A stretch of DNA of 40,503 bases. Source: Candidatus Omnitrophota bacterium. GTDB taxonomy: Bacteria; Omnitrophota; Gorgyraeia; Gygaellales; JAMWCP01. Shown piece after piece: positions 3,049 through 28,786 of this stretch. How positions within the stretch are numbered: position 1 is the stretch's first letter; each line of letters starts with the position of its first letter. Position numbers and translations under genes: made by a program. The DNA lies in assembly GCA_023819665.1 (NCBI GenBank), contig JAMWCP010000003.1, positions 1 to 40,503 of the forward strand, in the 5' to 3' direction. A model generated the notes under the pieces. The model searched no databases. It worked only from the letters and a program-made list of their open reading frames with translations, and had not been told where the DNA came from.

Positions 3049-3249
3049 ATGAAAAGATTGATGAATATTGATGAATTGGCTAACTATTTAAGGTTACGCA
3101 AACAGACTATTTATAATTGGCTTTATCAGAAGAAAATATCGGGGTTTAAAGTAGGAGGGGTTTGGAGATTTGATAAAAGAGAGATTGATGCATGGTTGAA
3201 AAGCAGGAAACCGGAAGTAAAGACTAAGGAGAACAATGAGAAACAATGA
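3049..3249 (+). CDS. Excisionase-type (MerR-like) HTH DNA-binding protein
   Basis: A 66-residue protein that is almost entirely one excisionase/MerR-like winged HTH (MNIDELANYLRLRKQTIYNW, then FKVGGVWRFDKREIDAWL). These proteins bind DNA; most are regulators, some are recombination directionality factors. No integrase or mobile element is nearby, so a regulatory role is more likely. It overlaps pilM by 14 bases and has no strong ribosome site. The start could also be the ATG at 3061. Related HTH modules occur again in this window in the bactofilin fusion (23193) and the membrane-anchored protein (23698). Confidence 0.85.
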   Translation: MKRLMNIDELANYLRLRKQTIYNWLYQKKISGFKVGGVWRFDKREIDAWLKSRKPEVKTKENNEKQ

Positions 3250-23166: not shown

Positions 23167-23192
23167 ATTAAACTTGTAGGAAGGAGGTGAGT

Positions 23193-23693
23193 ATGGCTTT
23201 AGTCAAGAAACCGCAAGAAAAAATTTTAGACGTAGATGCTTTTCTTCAGGGAAATCTGTCTTTTAAAGAACCCGTTAATTTAAAAATAAATGGGAGATTT
23301 GAGGGGAATTTAGAGACTAAAGGAAACCTTACTATTGGTACCTCAGCGGTAGTAAATGCAGAAATTATCGGAGAAAATATTATTATTGCAGGAAAAGTTA
23401 AAGGTAAGATAGTGGCTAACCATTTGCTTACTCTTTTGCCCACTGCGGTAGTAGAAGGAGAGATTTTCCCGGCGCGTTTAAATGTAGCGGAAGGAGCAAT
23501 CTTTGAAGGAAGTTGTAGAATGTTACAGGATGTATTTAATGTGGAAGAATTAGCACGTTATCTGGAATTGGATACAACCAGTATTTTAGAACTGGCAAAT
23601 GCAGGTAAAATTCCTGCTTTCAAAGATGGTGAGGAATGGAAATTTGAACGCCGAGCCATAGATAATTGGCTTGTTTCAAATAGATTGAAATAG
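23193..23693 (+). CDS. Bactofilin fused to an excisionase-type HTH domain
   Basis: A 166-residue protein. Residues about 12-112 are a bactofilin beta-helix: repeating short strands such as FLQGNLSFKEPVNLKINGRFEG, LTIGTSAVVNAEIIGENIIIAG and GEIFPARLNVAEGAIFEG. Bactofilins polymerise into cytoskeletal filaments that guide cell shape and envelope synthesis. Residues about 116-164 are an extra HTH of the excisionase/MerR type (VEELARYLELDTTSILELA...EEWKFERRAIDNWL), absent from normal bactofilins. The start is ATG 23193 with AGGAGG upstream; GTG 23187 lies within that ribosome site. The gene 4 bases downstream encodes a second HTH of the same type with a membrane anchor. Confidence 0.88.
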   Translation: MALVKKPQEKILDVDAFLQGNLSFKEPVNLKINGRFEGNLETKGNLTIGTSAVVNAEIIGENIIIAGKVKGKIVANHLLTLLPTAVVEGEIFPARLNVAEGAIFEGSCRMLQDVFNVEELARYLELDTTSILELANAGKIPAFKDGEEWKFERRAIDNWLVSNRLK

Positions 23694-23697
23694 GAGT

Positions 23698-24006
23698 ATG
23701 CCCCAAGAAAAATTACTTACAGTAAGAGAGGTTTCTATTTTGCTTCATCTTACCGAGAAAGAGGTATTGGATTTAGTAGAGAAAGGACAAATCCCTGCTT
23801 ATAAAGTAGCAGGGATATATTTAAGGTTTAGACGCAATGATATAGAGGAATTTAAAAAAGAGAGATTAAAGTCAGGTGAGTTGTCCCCTCAATCTAAAAT
23901 AACTTTAAAGGAAAAAATATATGATTTTTTATATTTTAATGATTTCTATATCTTTTCCCTTTTTTTGATTATCTGGTTAATTGTTATAATTATTAAGAGT
24001 CAATAG
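23698..24006 (+). CDS. Tail-anchored excisionase-type HTH protein
   Basis: A 102-residue protein. Residues 5-55 are an excisionase/MerR-like HTH (LLTVREVSILLHLTEKEVLDLVEKG, then VAGIYLRFRRNDIEEFKKE). After a polar linker the last 25 residues form a single membrane helix (IFSLFLIIWLIVIIIKS), which would anchor the DNA-binding domain to the inner membrane from the cytoplasmic side. It is translationally close to the bactofilin-HTH gene (4-base gap), so the two probably work together. The partner and DNA target are unknown. Confidence 0.82.
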   Translation: MPQEKLLTVREVSILLHLTEKEVLDLVEKGQIPAYKVAGIYLRFRRNDIEEFKKERLKSGELSPQSKITLKEKIYDFLYFNDFYIFSLFLIIWLIVIIIKSQ

Positions 24007-24475: not shown

Positions 24476-25804
24476 ATGGCTCTATCGGGTTTAGAGATAT
24501 ATAAACTTCTTCCGAAGACCAACTGTCGAGAATGCGGATTTTCTACGTGTTTAGCTTTTGCTATGCAGTTGGCAAAAAAGGCAGTAGCTTTAGATAAATG
24601 CCCTTTCTTAACAGAAGAGTCAAAAAAAATTTTGGAGGAATTGAATCTTCCGGCAATAAAATTAATTACCATTGGTAAAAACGATCAAAGAGTACAGATT
24701 GGTAATGAGAATGTGCTTTTTCGACACGAGGAGAGATTTTATAATCCGCCGGGGATAGGCATTATTATTAACGATGATTTAGCGCAGACCGAGGTACTTA
24801 ATATTATTAGAAAGATAAAGGATTTAGAATTTGAACGTATAGGACAGAGGCTCAAAATAGAACTCCTCGCCATAAGAAATAGATCTTCAGAAGAAAATTT
24901 TTTAAAAACCATAGACCTAGTAGTTCATAATACTTCTTTTGCCCTTGTTCTGATGTGCGAAGAACCCCGTAGAGTTAAAAAAGTATTAGAGTTATATAAA
25001 GATTTAAGACCTCTTATCTACCGCATAACCCCAGATAACTTTTTACAATTCTCTCAATTACTTAAAGGAGATAATGTGCCTGTAGTGGTATGGAGTGAGG
25101 ATTTAGAAGGAATTTCTTATTTGACTCAACAGTTAAACAGAAATCAGATAAACGAATTAGTTTTGGAGGTAAGCAATAAATCTCCGGCTTTTGCCCTATG
25201 GCAACTTACCCAAATAAGAAGACTCTCTTTAAAGAAAAAAGAGCGGAGTTTAGGATATCCTGTTTTGGTGTTAATAGAAAATCAGGATAAAGACTTAAGT
25301 CTTTTATTTACAGTTAGTTATATTGCTAAATATGCGGGGATTATACTTCTGGATACATTTTCTCCAGAAGATATTTTTGGTATTTTAACTTTAAGACAGA
25401 ATATATATACTGATCCCCAAAAACCTTTACAGATTGAACCAAAACTTTATAGTATTGGAAGTGTAAATACTTATTCTCCTGTGCTGGTTACTACCAACTT
25501 TTCTCTTACCTATTATACCGTCTTAGGAGAAGTGGAGGCCAGCAGAGTCCCTTCTTATATATTAAGTGTAAACACAGAGGGAATGTCAGTCTTAACCGCA
25601 TGGGCAGCAGAAAAATTTACTCCGGAGAGTATTATTGAAGCAATTGAAAAGTCGGAGTTAAAAAAGTTCGTCAATCACAATCGTATAATTATTCCCGGTT
25701 ATGTAGCAATGATGAGCGGAGATTTGCAAGAGAAGTCAGGTTGGCAGGTAATAGTAGGTCCAAGGGAGGCTGCGGGAATACCTAGGTTTTTAAGAGATTT
25801 ATAA
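24476..25804 (+). CDS. acsC: Corrinoid iron-sulfur protein large subunit (CODH/ACS gamma)
   Basis: A 442-residue AcsC/CdhE. It carries a cobamide and a 4Fe-4S cluster and shuttles the methyl group from methyl-tetrahydrofolate to acetyl-CoA synthase. The N-terminal cluster domain has Cys17, 20, 25 and 42 (NCRECGFSTC...DKCPF). A TIM-barrel middle and a C-terminal cobamide-binding region follow (VNTEGMSVLTAWAAEKFTPESI). Partner subunit AcsD lies two genes downstream. The start is ATG 24476 with GGAG upstream. Confidence 0.95.
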   Translation: MALSGLEIYKLLPKTNCRECGFSTCLAFAMQLAKKAVALDKCPFLTEESKKILEELNLPAIKLITIGKNDQRVQIGNENVLFRHEERFYNPPGIGIIINDDLAQTEVLNIIRKIKDLEFERIGQRLKIELLAIRNRSSEENFLKTIDLVVHNTSFALVLMCEEPRRVKKVLELYKDLRPLIYRITPDNFLQFSQLLKGDNVPVVVWSEDLEGISYLTQQLNRNQINELVLEVSNKSPAFALWQLTQIRRLSLKKKERSLGYPVLVLIENQDKDLSLLFTVSYIAKYAGIILLDTFSPEDIFGILTLRQNIYTDPQKPLQIEPKLYSIGSVNTYSPVLVTTNFSLTYYTVLGEVEASRVPSYILSVNTEGMSVLTAWAAEKFTPESIIEAIEKSELKKFVNHNRIIIPGYVAMMSGDLQEKSGWQVIVGPREAAGIPRFLRDL

Positions 25805-25889
25805 TTTTTATTTTAGGTTAAAGAATAAGAAATACTTAAACAAAGAAAACAGATAACGAAAATTATTGTAGGGTGGGAGAATTTATATT

Positions 25890-27821
25890 ATGGAAAAGTT
25901 TAAAGTTACTTTTTACCCGGATCATAAGACCGTTGAGATACAGAAGGGGCAGAGTATTCTTTCTGCTGCACTTGCCGCAGGTATCTATATCAACTCAAAT
26001 TGTGGGGGAGAGGGGATCTGTGGGAGATGTAAGATAATTTTAAGAAAGGGAGAGGTTTTTACTCAACCTAGTGGAAGACTTTCGTGGGAAGAGAGAAAAC
26101 ACAACTACTATCTCGCCTGTCTTACTACGGTGCAGAGCGATTTAGAGGTAGAGGTTCCTGAGGAATCACGGTTAAGTTTTGAAAAACTTGCTGTTGAAGA
26201 GATAGCATTGCGTTTTAAAGGATTTTATGAAAAACCTGAAAGTATTGAGACTACCCAATCAATTCTAGATGAAGTTTTTGTACATTCACCATTAGCTACC
26301 AAATTATATATAGAATTGCCTCCACCCAATTTAAATGACCGCGTAAGCGATCTCGAAAGGTTGTATCGAGAGATCCGCAAGAGACACGAAATCCCTATTA
26401 TTCAGACATGCCTTACTAATATAAGATCCTTAGGGCATCTTTTGCGGAATTCAGATTGGAAAGTGACGGTTACGTTGGGGAAGAGAGACGGGGTGGTAGA
26501 GATTGTTCTTGTTGAACCAAATAATACTTCTTTGCATAATTATGGGTTTGCTTTTGATATCGGAACCACTACCATCTGTGGTGAACTTATAGATCTGAAT
26601 AACAAAAAGATTTTAGGGGCACGTGCAATTTATAATAAACAAACAGTGTTTGGTCCTGATGTAATTACGCGTATCATCTACGGTTCGCAAGCCGATGGCT
26701 TGGAGAAGTTACATCATGCCGTCGTTGATGGAATGAATGAAATTATTCAAGAACTCATCCAAGAAGAAAAAATTGATTTAAACAATGTTACCTGTGTTCT
26801 CTGTGCCGGTAATCCTACCATGATCCATCTTTTACTTAAAATAGAACCTACTTATTTAAGGAGAGAGCCTTATATACCGGTTGCTAATTTTATCCCCACT
26901 ATCCGTGCCAGTGAGACAGGAATTAAGATAAATCCACGCGGACTACTTTTCTGTCTACCGGGGGTTTCTAGTTATTTAGGTGGAGATATAGTGGCAGGAG
27001 TACTTTCTTGCGGGATGTATAAAGAAGAGGGAATCTGTCTTTTGATTGATATTGGAACAAACGGAGAAATTGTTTTAGGAAATAGAGATTTTCTTGTAGG
27101 TTGTAGTGCTTCTGCAGGTCCTGCTTTTGAGGGCTCAGGAGTAAACTATGGTATGCGTGCCAGTGGTGGTGCTATACAGAAAGTGAAGATTTTACCCAAC
27201 GCTGATAAGGTAGAATTTTCTACTATCGGTAATATACCCGCACGGGGAATATGTGGTTCAGGATATATTGATATTCTGGCGCAGATGTTGATGACAGGGG
27301 TCATTGATCGTTCAGGAAAGATAAGATGGGAAGACCATCCGCGGATAAAACAAAGAGAGCTTGAGAAAGAGTTTATAATAGCTTTTAAAGAGGAGACTAA
27401 TTTGGATTCTGATATCGTAATTACTGAGACAGATATTGAGAATTTAAAACGTGCAAAAGCCGCCATCTTTGCGGCTACTTCTGTTTTAGTAAAACATATG
27501 AATTTGGATTTGAAACAGATAGAGAAAGTGTTTATTGCGGGTGGATTTGGTAGTTATCTAAATATTCAAAATGCTAAACTTATTGGTTTACTTCCAGATT
27601 TAGAAGAGAGAAGGTTTATCTTTGTAGGAAACAGCTCTTTGATAGGCGCATCTTATGTTCTTTTATCTCATCAGGCAATGCAGAGAGCAGAGGAGCTGGC
27701 ACACAAGATTACTTATTTTGAATTATCGGTGGATCACAGTTATATGGAAGAGTATATGGCTGCTTTGTTTTTCCCGCACACGGATATCTCAAGGTTCCCT
27801 AATCTTAAAGGCATGATATGA
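25890..27821 (+). CDS. RACo-type reductive activator of corrinoid protein (2Fe-2S + ASKHA domain)
   Basis: A 643-residue ATP-dependent activator that re-reduces inactive Co(II) corrinoid protein to Co(I). It has an N-terminal 2Fe-2S ferredoxin domain with Cys38, 44, 47 and 77 (NCGGEGICGRC...LAC), a linker/middle domain and a C-terminal ASKHA ATPase (DUF4445) with FAFDIGTTTICGELID, LLIDIGTNGEIVLG and EKVFIAGGFGSYLNIQNA. Length and order match RACo of acetogens. It sits between acsC and acsD, whose product it would activate. The 85-base gap before it shows no strong promoter. Confidence 0.93.
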   Translation: MEKFKVTFYPDHKTVEIQKGQSILSAALAAGIYINSNCGGEGICGRCKIILRKGEVFTQPSGRLSWEERKHNYYLACLTTVQSDLEVEVPEESRLSFEKLAVEEIALRFKGFYEKPESIETTQSILDEVFVHSPLATKLYIELPPPNLNDRVSDLERLYREIRKRHEIPIIQTCLTNIRSLGHLLRNSDWKVTVTLGKRDGVVEIVLVEPNNTSLHNYGFAFDIGTTTICGELIDLNNKKILGARAIYNKQTVFGPDVITRIIYGSQADGLEKLHHAVVDGMNEIIQELIQEEKIDLNNVTCVLCAGNPTMIHLLLKIEPTYLRREPYIPVANFIPTIRASETGIKINPRGLLFCLPGVSSYLGGDIVAGVLSCGMYKEEGICLLIDIGTNGEIVLGNRDFLVGCSASAGPAFEGSGVNYGMRASGGAIQKVKILPNADKVEFSTIGNIPARGICGSGYIDILAQMLMTGVIDRSGKIRWEDHPRIKQRELEKEFIIAFKEETNLDSDIVITETDIENLKRAKAAIFAATSVLVKHMNLDLKQIEKVFIAGGFGSYLNIQNAKLIGLLPDLEERRFIFVGNSSLIGASYVLLSHQAMQRAEELAHKITYFELSVDHSYMEEYMAALFFPHTDISRFPNLKGMI

Positions 27822-28786
27822 TAAAAGAATATATTGAAAATTGGTCGGGAGAAGTAAATACACTAGTTATTGGAGCTACTCCTGAAGAAGGAGGTAGCCG
27901 GCGTTTTAGTGTGAAGATAGGGGGCGAAAGGACATTACCTTTTTTATTTAAAGAAGCGTTGCTTCCTTTTAAACCTGTAATTGCTTATGAGATTTGGGAT
28001 ATAGAGCCAATTGATTGGGCAACAGCTCTATCTAAATATTATGGAGATGTTTGGGGTAACACCTTGGAGTGGGCAGATAAGTTAATTAGAGAATATAAAG
28101 CAGAACTTCTGTGTTTAAAACTAGCAGGAGCACATCCGGAAATAGGGAAAGATTTAGATGAGATAGTAAAACTTTTAGAGGGTCTTTTAAAGAAAGTCGA
28201 TATACCTTTGATTATTATTGGCTGTGGAGATGTTCAGAGAGACAACTTTATTCTTCCTTTGTGTTCTCAGATACTTAAAAATGAACGTTGTCTTATTGGG
28301 GAGGTAAATCAGGACAATTATAAAACTTTAACTGCAGCAGTATTGGCTGATGGTCATAGTATTATTGCTCAATCTCCTATTGATATAAATATTGCGAAAC
28401 AGTTGAATATTTTAATTTCTGATATGGGTTTGCCTTTGGAACGGATTGTGATCAATCCCACGGTGGGTGCCTTAGGATATGGTTTAGAATATACCTATTC
28501 TATTATGGAGCGTTTGAGATTAGCCGCCTTAAACAACGATAGAGTAGTAGCATCACCTTTTATCTGTTTTGTAGGACAAGAGAGTTGGCGGGTAAAAGAA
28601 GCAACTACTCCCGAGAAAGAATTTTCTCGTTGGGGTAGTGAATGGCGGCGTGGTTATCTATGGGAATTGATTACTGCTGGCGCTTTATTACAGGCAGGAG
28701 CAAATATTTTGGTGATGAGACATCCAAAAGCGATAGAAAAAATAAAGGAGTATATAGACAAACTATATGAATTTAAAATAAATTAA
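27818..28786 (+). CDS. acsD: Corrinoid iron-sulfur protein small subunit (CODH/ACS delta)
   Basis: A 322-residue AcsD/CdhD, the TIM-barrel partner of AcsC in the corrinoid iron-sulfur protein. Clear family segments are GATPEEGGSRRFSVKIGGERTLPFL, AYEIWDIEPIDW, LKLAGAHPEIGKDL and NPTVGALGYGLEYTYSIMERLRLAAL. It overlaps the activator gene by 4 bases and is followed 11 bases later by acsE, so the methyl-transfer unit is one operon. Confidence 0.94.
   Translation: MIKEYIENWSGEVNTLVIGATPEEGGSRRFSVKIGGERTLPFLFKEALLPFKPVIAYEIWDIEPIDWATALSKYYGDVWGNTLEWADKLIREYKAELLCLKLAGAHPEIGKDLDEIVKLLEGLLKKVDIPLIIIGCGDVQRDNFILPLCSQILKNERCLIGEVNQDNYKTLTAAVLADGHSIIAQSPIDINIAKQLNILISDMGLPLERIVINPTVGALGYGLEYTYSIMERLRLAALNNDRVVASPFICFVGQESWRVKEATTPEKEFSRWGSEWRRGYLWELITAGALLQAGANILVMRHPKAIEKIKEYIDKLYEFKIN

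Follow-up and report, generated by a model that had tools for sequence, protein, structure and literature searches.

Do a bactofilin with a C-terminal wHTH domain and the tail-anchored HTH protein (TA-HTH) encoded directly downstream of it hold DNA at the cell envelope, or has their DNA-binding fold been put to another use? The question is raised by two adjacent genes in the window, i.e. the whole stretch of 40,503 nucleotides analysed here, which comes from an Omnitrophota MAG of 1.24 Mb; a genome search found the bactofilin-wHTH fusion to be the sole bactofilin gene there. The earlier note on this DNA preferred a DNA tether, such as chromosome anchoring, kept a re-use of the HTH domains for protein contacts as a fallback, and knew of no described system of this design. 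On the last point we can concur, as the open-licence literature searched contained no description of a bactofilin-HTH fusion and, on bactofilins in Omnitrophota, nothing but one passing co-mention. Two testable questions are at stake: how bactofilins come by membrane partners of their own, and whether a fold for binding DNA has been turned into a matched docking pair, with one member on the filament and the other on the membrane.

Architecture of the gene pair

The features of both genes are collected in Table 1. The fusion gene starts with ATG, preceded by a Shine-Dalgarno sequence (aaggaggtg, 23181-23189), and its product combines a nearly complete bactofilin domain with a MerR/excisionase-type wHTH. 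The TA-HTH gene follows after 4 bases, and its own Shine-Dalgarno sequence (aggag) overlaps the stop codon of the fusion, so translation of the pair is probably coupled. Hydropathy of the best 19-residue segment, taken over 226 TA-HTH orthologues, averages 2.35 and exceeds 1.6 in 99%; the segment lies at the extreme C-terminus, with a median of one residue beyond it. The protein thus carries a single C-terminal membrane helix with almost nothing after it, as is typical of tail-anchored proteins. Pfam matches and hydropathy therefore bear out what had been noticed at first reading, namely a bactofilin extended by an HTH next to an HTH protein that ends in a membrane helix. Matches to the anti-phage system MADS1 / MAD1 (46.5 and 42.2 bits) fell under the curated cut-off of 80 and were dropped as generic HTH matches.

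Table 1. Features of the bactofilin-wHTH fusion and TA-HTH genes in the window
Feature	Position	Strand	Basis
Bactofilin-wHTH fusion gene, 166 aa	23193..23693	+	PF04519 and PF12728; orthologues phylum-wide
N-terminal MTS-like peptide MALVKK (family consensus MAFKKK)	23193..23210	+	Alignment of 226 orthologues
Bactofilin beta-helix domain, residues 12-108	23226..23516	+	PF04519, E 1.1e-23, profile positions 3-97 of 98; AF2 strands; Foldseek 2n3d, TMt 0.84
C-terminal wHTH of the fusion, residues 115-160, acidic recognition helix	23535..23672	+	HTH_17 (PF12728), E 1.6e-9; charge analysis
Acidic turn L-E-[VI]-[DE], residues 124-127, between helix 1 and helix 2	23562..23573	+	Proposed docking head
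TA-HTH gene, 102 aa	23698..24006	+	HTH_17 (PF12728), E 2e-9
wHTH of TA-HTH, residues 6-56	23713..23865	+	PF12728; AF2
A34-Y35-K36 strand, face relaxed in lineages without the fusion	23797..23805	+	Conservation comparison
Juxtamembrane aromatic motif DF.YFNDFYI, residues 76-85	23923..23952	+	Y84 conservation
C-terminal membrane helix	23953..23997	+	Hydropathy; AF2 helix

Most fusion orthologues begin with a MAFKKK-like peptide, and some begin with MAKKK, which has no hydrophobic residue. Since the common form is close to the published membrane-targeting consensus of bactofilins, MFSKKKK (PMC12448750), the filament probably has a membrane contact of its own as well. For structure prediction, the orthologous pair of locus L030 was read through its natural in-frame gap, with the stop replaced by Gly. 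In the resulting AF2 model (mean pLDDT 88.6, pTM 0.57), the beta-strands of the bactofilin domain are followed by a first and a second wHTH, then by an interfacial and a terminal helix. A Foldseek search with the model retrieved bactofilin 2n3d and the wHTHs of BldC, RacA and Xis (6ama and 6amk, TMt 0.75-0.87; 5i44; 4j2n).

In the window, the pair is part of a same-strand run, gatA-gatB-S41 protease-polysaccharide deacetylase-tsaD-mgtC-[pair]-FmdE-like-CdhD-RACo, and the closest named relatives are Omnitrophota MAGs. In loci L038, L045 and many relatives, the TA-HTH gene is directly followed by an AIRC-domain (LarB-like) gene, the place of which is taken by the FmdE-like gene in the window. 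Further downstream, Pfam matches indicate a Wood-Ljungdahl cluster (24476-28783), in which CdhD-family proteins flank a RACo-type reductive activator.

Distribution and one-way dependency in Omnitrophota

We searched 384 Omnitrophota genomes, most of them MAGs, with the fusion as a query and with a profile of TA-HTH. Presence was tallied by hand at E < 1e-20 for the fusion and E <= 1e-12 for TA-HTH, and the counts vary with these thresholds. The fusion was found in 318 genomes and TA-HTH in 338; 317 genomes have both genes, one (G376) has the fusion alone, 21 have TA-HTH alone and 45 have neither. The pair is a near-core gene module of a large uncultured phylum, and its conservation across the whole phylum excludes chance as the source of its design. 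Outside the phylum, a pattern-based, insensitive contig scan gave a WOR-3 bactofilin without an HTH (L054) as the sole match; plasmid matches, in HTH proteins, covered at most half of the fusion, and a phage search with TA-HTH gave zero matches.

The two genes also stay together in position. Every locus picked by the fusion alone, without regard to TA-HTH, has TA-HTH next to it; in total, TA-HTH lies immediately downstream in all 226 fetched fusion loci, with an intergenic gap of -32 to +339 bases. In other locus classes the surrounding genes are wholly different (AcpS, GreA and others) and the pair is still together. As it stays intact although all other neighbours change, we regard the pair as a unit. 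Both the recurrence in other genomes and the joint conservation of the neighbours, on which the earlier note had made its proposal depend, were thus confirmed. In one locus (L084, genome G024) the fusion is split, with a bactofilin ORF that stops early and the HTH part just downstream in another frame, which is due to a frameshift or a sequencing error.

Four of the 21 genomes with TA-HTH alone (G258, G152, G313 and G285) were removed as contig-end artefacts; the remaining 17 each have 1 kb or more of sequence upstream of TA-HTH that is free of any fusion-profile match. The fusion was lost in six lineages: the genus g55 together with G260, the family f15 (8 genomes), G175, G010, which is counted here with a diverged TA-HTH that falls under the tally cut-off, G350, and the family f32. 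In several of them, TA-HTH occupies the usual site of the pair (mgtC-TA-larB or tsaD-TA-polA), and among 25 genomes in which the fusion matched weakly or not at all, 24 lack any bactofilin. Because the fusion almost never occurs without TA-HTH (1 of 318), and TA-HTH stands alone in six lineages, the dependency runs in one direction, with the fusion as the dependent partner. A role of TA-HTH solely as a membrane anchor was dropped, since it outlives the fusion.

Two further families, f35 and f14 (e.g. G165, G193, G029 and G085), have lost both genes yet keep MreB, and lend themselves to the question of what the module contributes to cell shape.

Recognition helices and a candidate contact face

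In the complex of BldC with DNA, Arg30 and Lys26 contact bases, Thr27, Thr29, Lys33 and Trp31 contact phosphates, and His46, Arg47 and Arg48 make the wing contacts; the R30A substitution "essentially abrogated" DNA binding (PMC5859096). TA-HTH aligns to BldC in the same register, without gaps. Its orthologues have D or E at the Arg30 site in 65%, an acidic residue at the Thr27 site in 72% and at the Lys33 site in 63%; 142 of the 226 have retained Lys26. In the fusion wHTH, the Arg30 site is D or E in 88%. As proof of lost DNA binding this acid is weakened by the fact that some paralogues also have E there, so the charge of the whole recognition helix was used as the better argument. The mean charge over the 226 orthologues is -1.88 in TA-HTH and -1.05 in the fusion, versus about +1.5 in 17 paralogous Omnitrophota HTH_17 domains (one listed row, the fusion's own domain, was left out of this set) and +3 in BldC. 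The basic DNA-reading recognition helix of HTH_17/BldC domains, together with the Arg30, Lys26 and Lys33 contacts, was thus not found in the pair, and sequence-specific reading of the major groove is unlikely for each of the two wHTHs. The wing of TA-HTH is basic, with K or R at the Arg41 site in 97% and Arg at the BldC Arg48 site (Arg43 in TA-HTH) in 226 of 226, and may contact the DNA backbone.

These results bear directly on a tether in which the filament wHTH, the membrane wHTH or both would hold a chromosomal site at the envelope, comparable to RacA-DivIVA or to BacP-PadC-ParABS of Myxococcus. The likeness of the wHTHs to BldC, Xis and RacA, the basic wing with its invariant Arg43, and the positioning of ParABS by bactofilins in Myxococcus (PMC5703909) speak for it. 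We nevertheless consider it improbable, given the acidic recognition helices, the mostly acidic or replaced equivalents of Arg30, Lys33 and Thr27, and a mean net charge of -2.4 for the fusion wHTH. Moreover, among the Omnitrophota genomes, ParB is present with or without the pair, as is MreB, and neither is co-lost with it, so no link to segregation or elongation is shown. Slightly less probable again is joint DNA binding, non-specific or at some particular site, by the bactofilin filament and the membrane-anchored wHTH to hold the nucleoid at the envelope, which, if true, would be a phylum-wide device for chromosome anchoring unlike ParABS, RacA or PopZ. The reading preferred in the earlier note is therefore weakened, and its fallback of protein contacts fits better. 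Absence of DNA-contact residues, which the note had named as evidence against itself, holds for most of the sites; Arg43 and the basic wing of TA-HTH are kept.

Lineages with the membrane part and without the filament can be regarded as natural deletion experiments that point to a contact face. The comparison took the TA-HTH positions at which at least 90% of the 226 genomes with the fusion share a residue class. The positions most relaxed in fusion-less lineages are A34, Y35, R45, K36, E11, L7, A38 and T8; the juxtamembrane residues (F77 and Y84), I49, Arg43 and the core are mostly retained, and Y84, invariant in the 226 genomes with the fusion, is kept in all loss lineages. Residue 35 is aromatic in 226 of 226 genomes with the fusion and changed in four of the six loss lineages (f15, G175, G010 and G295 of f32; Fisher 1.3e-7, in a test that ignores phylogeny). 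The Y35 face is thus released upon loss of the partner; K36, for its part, is common in HTH_17 domains generally. E11, Y35 and A38 correspond in position to Glu16, Ile40 and Leu43 of BldC, the residues on one side of its head-to-tail interface (PMC5859096). As a group, the interface-equivalent positions are shifted (Mann-Whitney p = 0.02), weakly so inside the HTH alone (p = 0.09), and the Arg22-Glu16' bridge of BldC is not reproduced, as both sides are acidic in this pair.

On the side of the fusion, the turn between helices 1 and 2 (L-E-L-D in the window) has L124 in 226 of 226 orthologues and an acidic residue at E125 in 93% and at D127 in 96%. At the two equivalent positions, acidic residues are absent from all 17 paralogous HTH_17 domains, and the first position is mostly K or R. 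Trp is common at position 134, where the window has Leu. The net charge of the TA-HTH wHTH is +1.1, opposite to that of the fusion. Mean-field DCA of 225 pairs (Neff ~130-175), with partners shuffled inside sequence clusters, gave z = 4.8 between the two wHTHs and 2.0-2.8 for blocks with the bactofilin domain. The first wHTH and the membrane helix scored 5.3, with implausible pairs that involve the far end of that helix, so the DCA partly reflects shared phylogeny; the signal between the two wHTHs is suggestive of a contact. For both wHTHs joined by the natural linker, AF2 reached a pTM of 0.42, and no confident relative placement of the two domains was obtained on natural read-through constructs.

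A possible cytoskeleton-to-membrane adaptor

Because of the opposite wHTH charges, the adjacency, the one-way dependency, the acidic recognition helices, the relaxation of the Y35 face and the DCA signal between the wHTHs, we tentatively favour a phylum-typical adaptor between cytoskeleton and membrane, in which the wHTHs of the fusion and TA-HTH would bind each other rather than DNA. Judging from family knowledge and the MTS-like N-terminus, the bactofilin domain would polymerise on the inner membrane and display one wHTH per subunit. TA-HTH would be fixed in the membrane by its terminal helix and the aromatic helix at the interface, and its wHTH would be cytoplasmic. The filament wHTH would dock by its acidic turn (L-E-V-D) and Trp 134 on the Tyr35/Lys36 face, perhaps head-to-tail, like the packing of BldC subunits, and this docking would recruit TA-HTH, or its cargo, to the filament. 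TA-HTH would have a further role, served by the juxtamembrane motif and surviving without the filament. The module may contribute to envelope organisation or shape.

Each element of the adaptor has a precedent: the RodZ HTH binds MreB and not DNA (PMC6946637), the MerR-like fold of CbpM binds a J-domain (PMC4063869), and the membrane client PbpC binds, and is recruited by, the bactofilin BacA (PMC12448750). Canonical bactofilins (BacA of Caulobacter, 2N3D; Thermus, 6RIA/6RIB), together with PbpC, share with the pair the beta-helix, the MTS-like N-terminus and a small membrane partner, but most of them have a short C-terminal tail of low conservation, whereas the fusion ends in a folded wHTH and is paired with a tail-anchored wHTH. 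BacNOP-PadC-ParAB of Myxococcus xanthus likewise uses a bactofilin C-terminal extension to recruit a client, as proposed here; in that system, however, BacP has a disordered tail and PadC a ParB-type domain, while the pair has no ParB domain and its locus is unlinked to parAB. Like RodZ, TA-HTH is bitopic, with an N-terminal cytoplasmic HTH that would serve a cytoskeletal polymer instead of DNA; RodZ differs in its XRE-type HTH and actin-like partner MreB, whereas TA-HTH is of MerR/excisionase type without a periplasmic domain and its filament itself bears an HTH. CbpM offers a MerR-like fold without DNA-binding residues acting as a protein binder, as the wHTHs of the pair may do, but it is a coiled-coil dimer, a chaperone regulator, and has an unrelated partner. 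The pair shares its wHTH fold with BldC, excisionases and RacA, and is distinguished from them by acidic recognition helices, the loss of most DNA-contact residues, and fusion to a filament or a membrane anchor.

An alternative is a scaffold whose two wHTHs bind different protein partners within one envelope-organising pathway, without mutual contact. Acidic recognition helices in both proteins, the persistence of TA-HTH in six lineages without the fusion and the AF2 models without an interface agree with such a scaffold; strict adjacency, the one-way dependency and a Y35 face that relaxes specifically upon fusion loss do not, and we regard it as rather unlikely. Membrane-bound HTH regulators exist, and TA-HTH could be a one-component regulator of transcription with an activity set by its capture on the bactofilin-wHTH polymer, as its basic wing and its solitary occurrence in some lineages would allow. 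This is the least probable of the readings considered: the recognition helix is acidic, the 26 bases between mgtC and the fusion, in a tightly packed strand, leave hardly any space for a separate operator, and the gene is near-core, unlike that of a horizontally variable regulator.

Apart from the pair, the window encodes a standalone HTH_17 protein of 66 aa with a basic recognition helix (3049-3246; RKQTIYNWLYQKK). Small HTH_17 genes of this kind are found repeatedly in the phylum, and another one in the genome of the window is located directly upstream of an SMC-like gene (L032).
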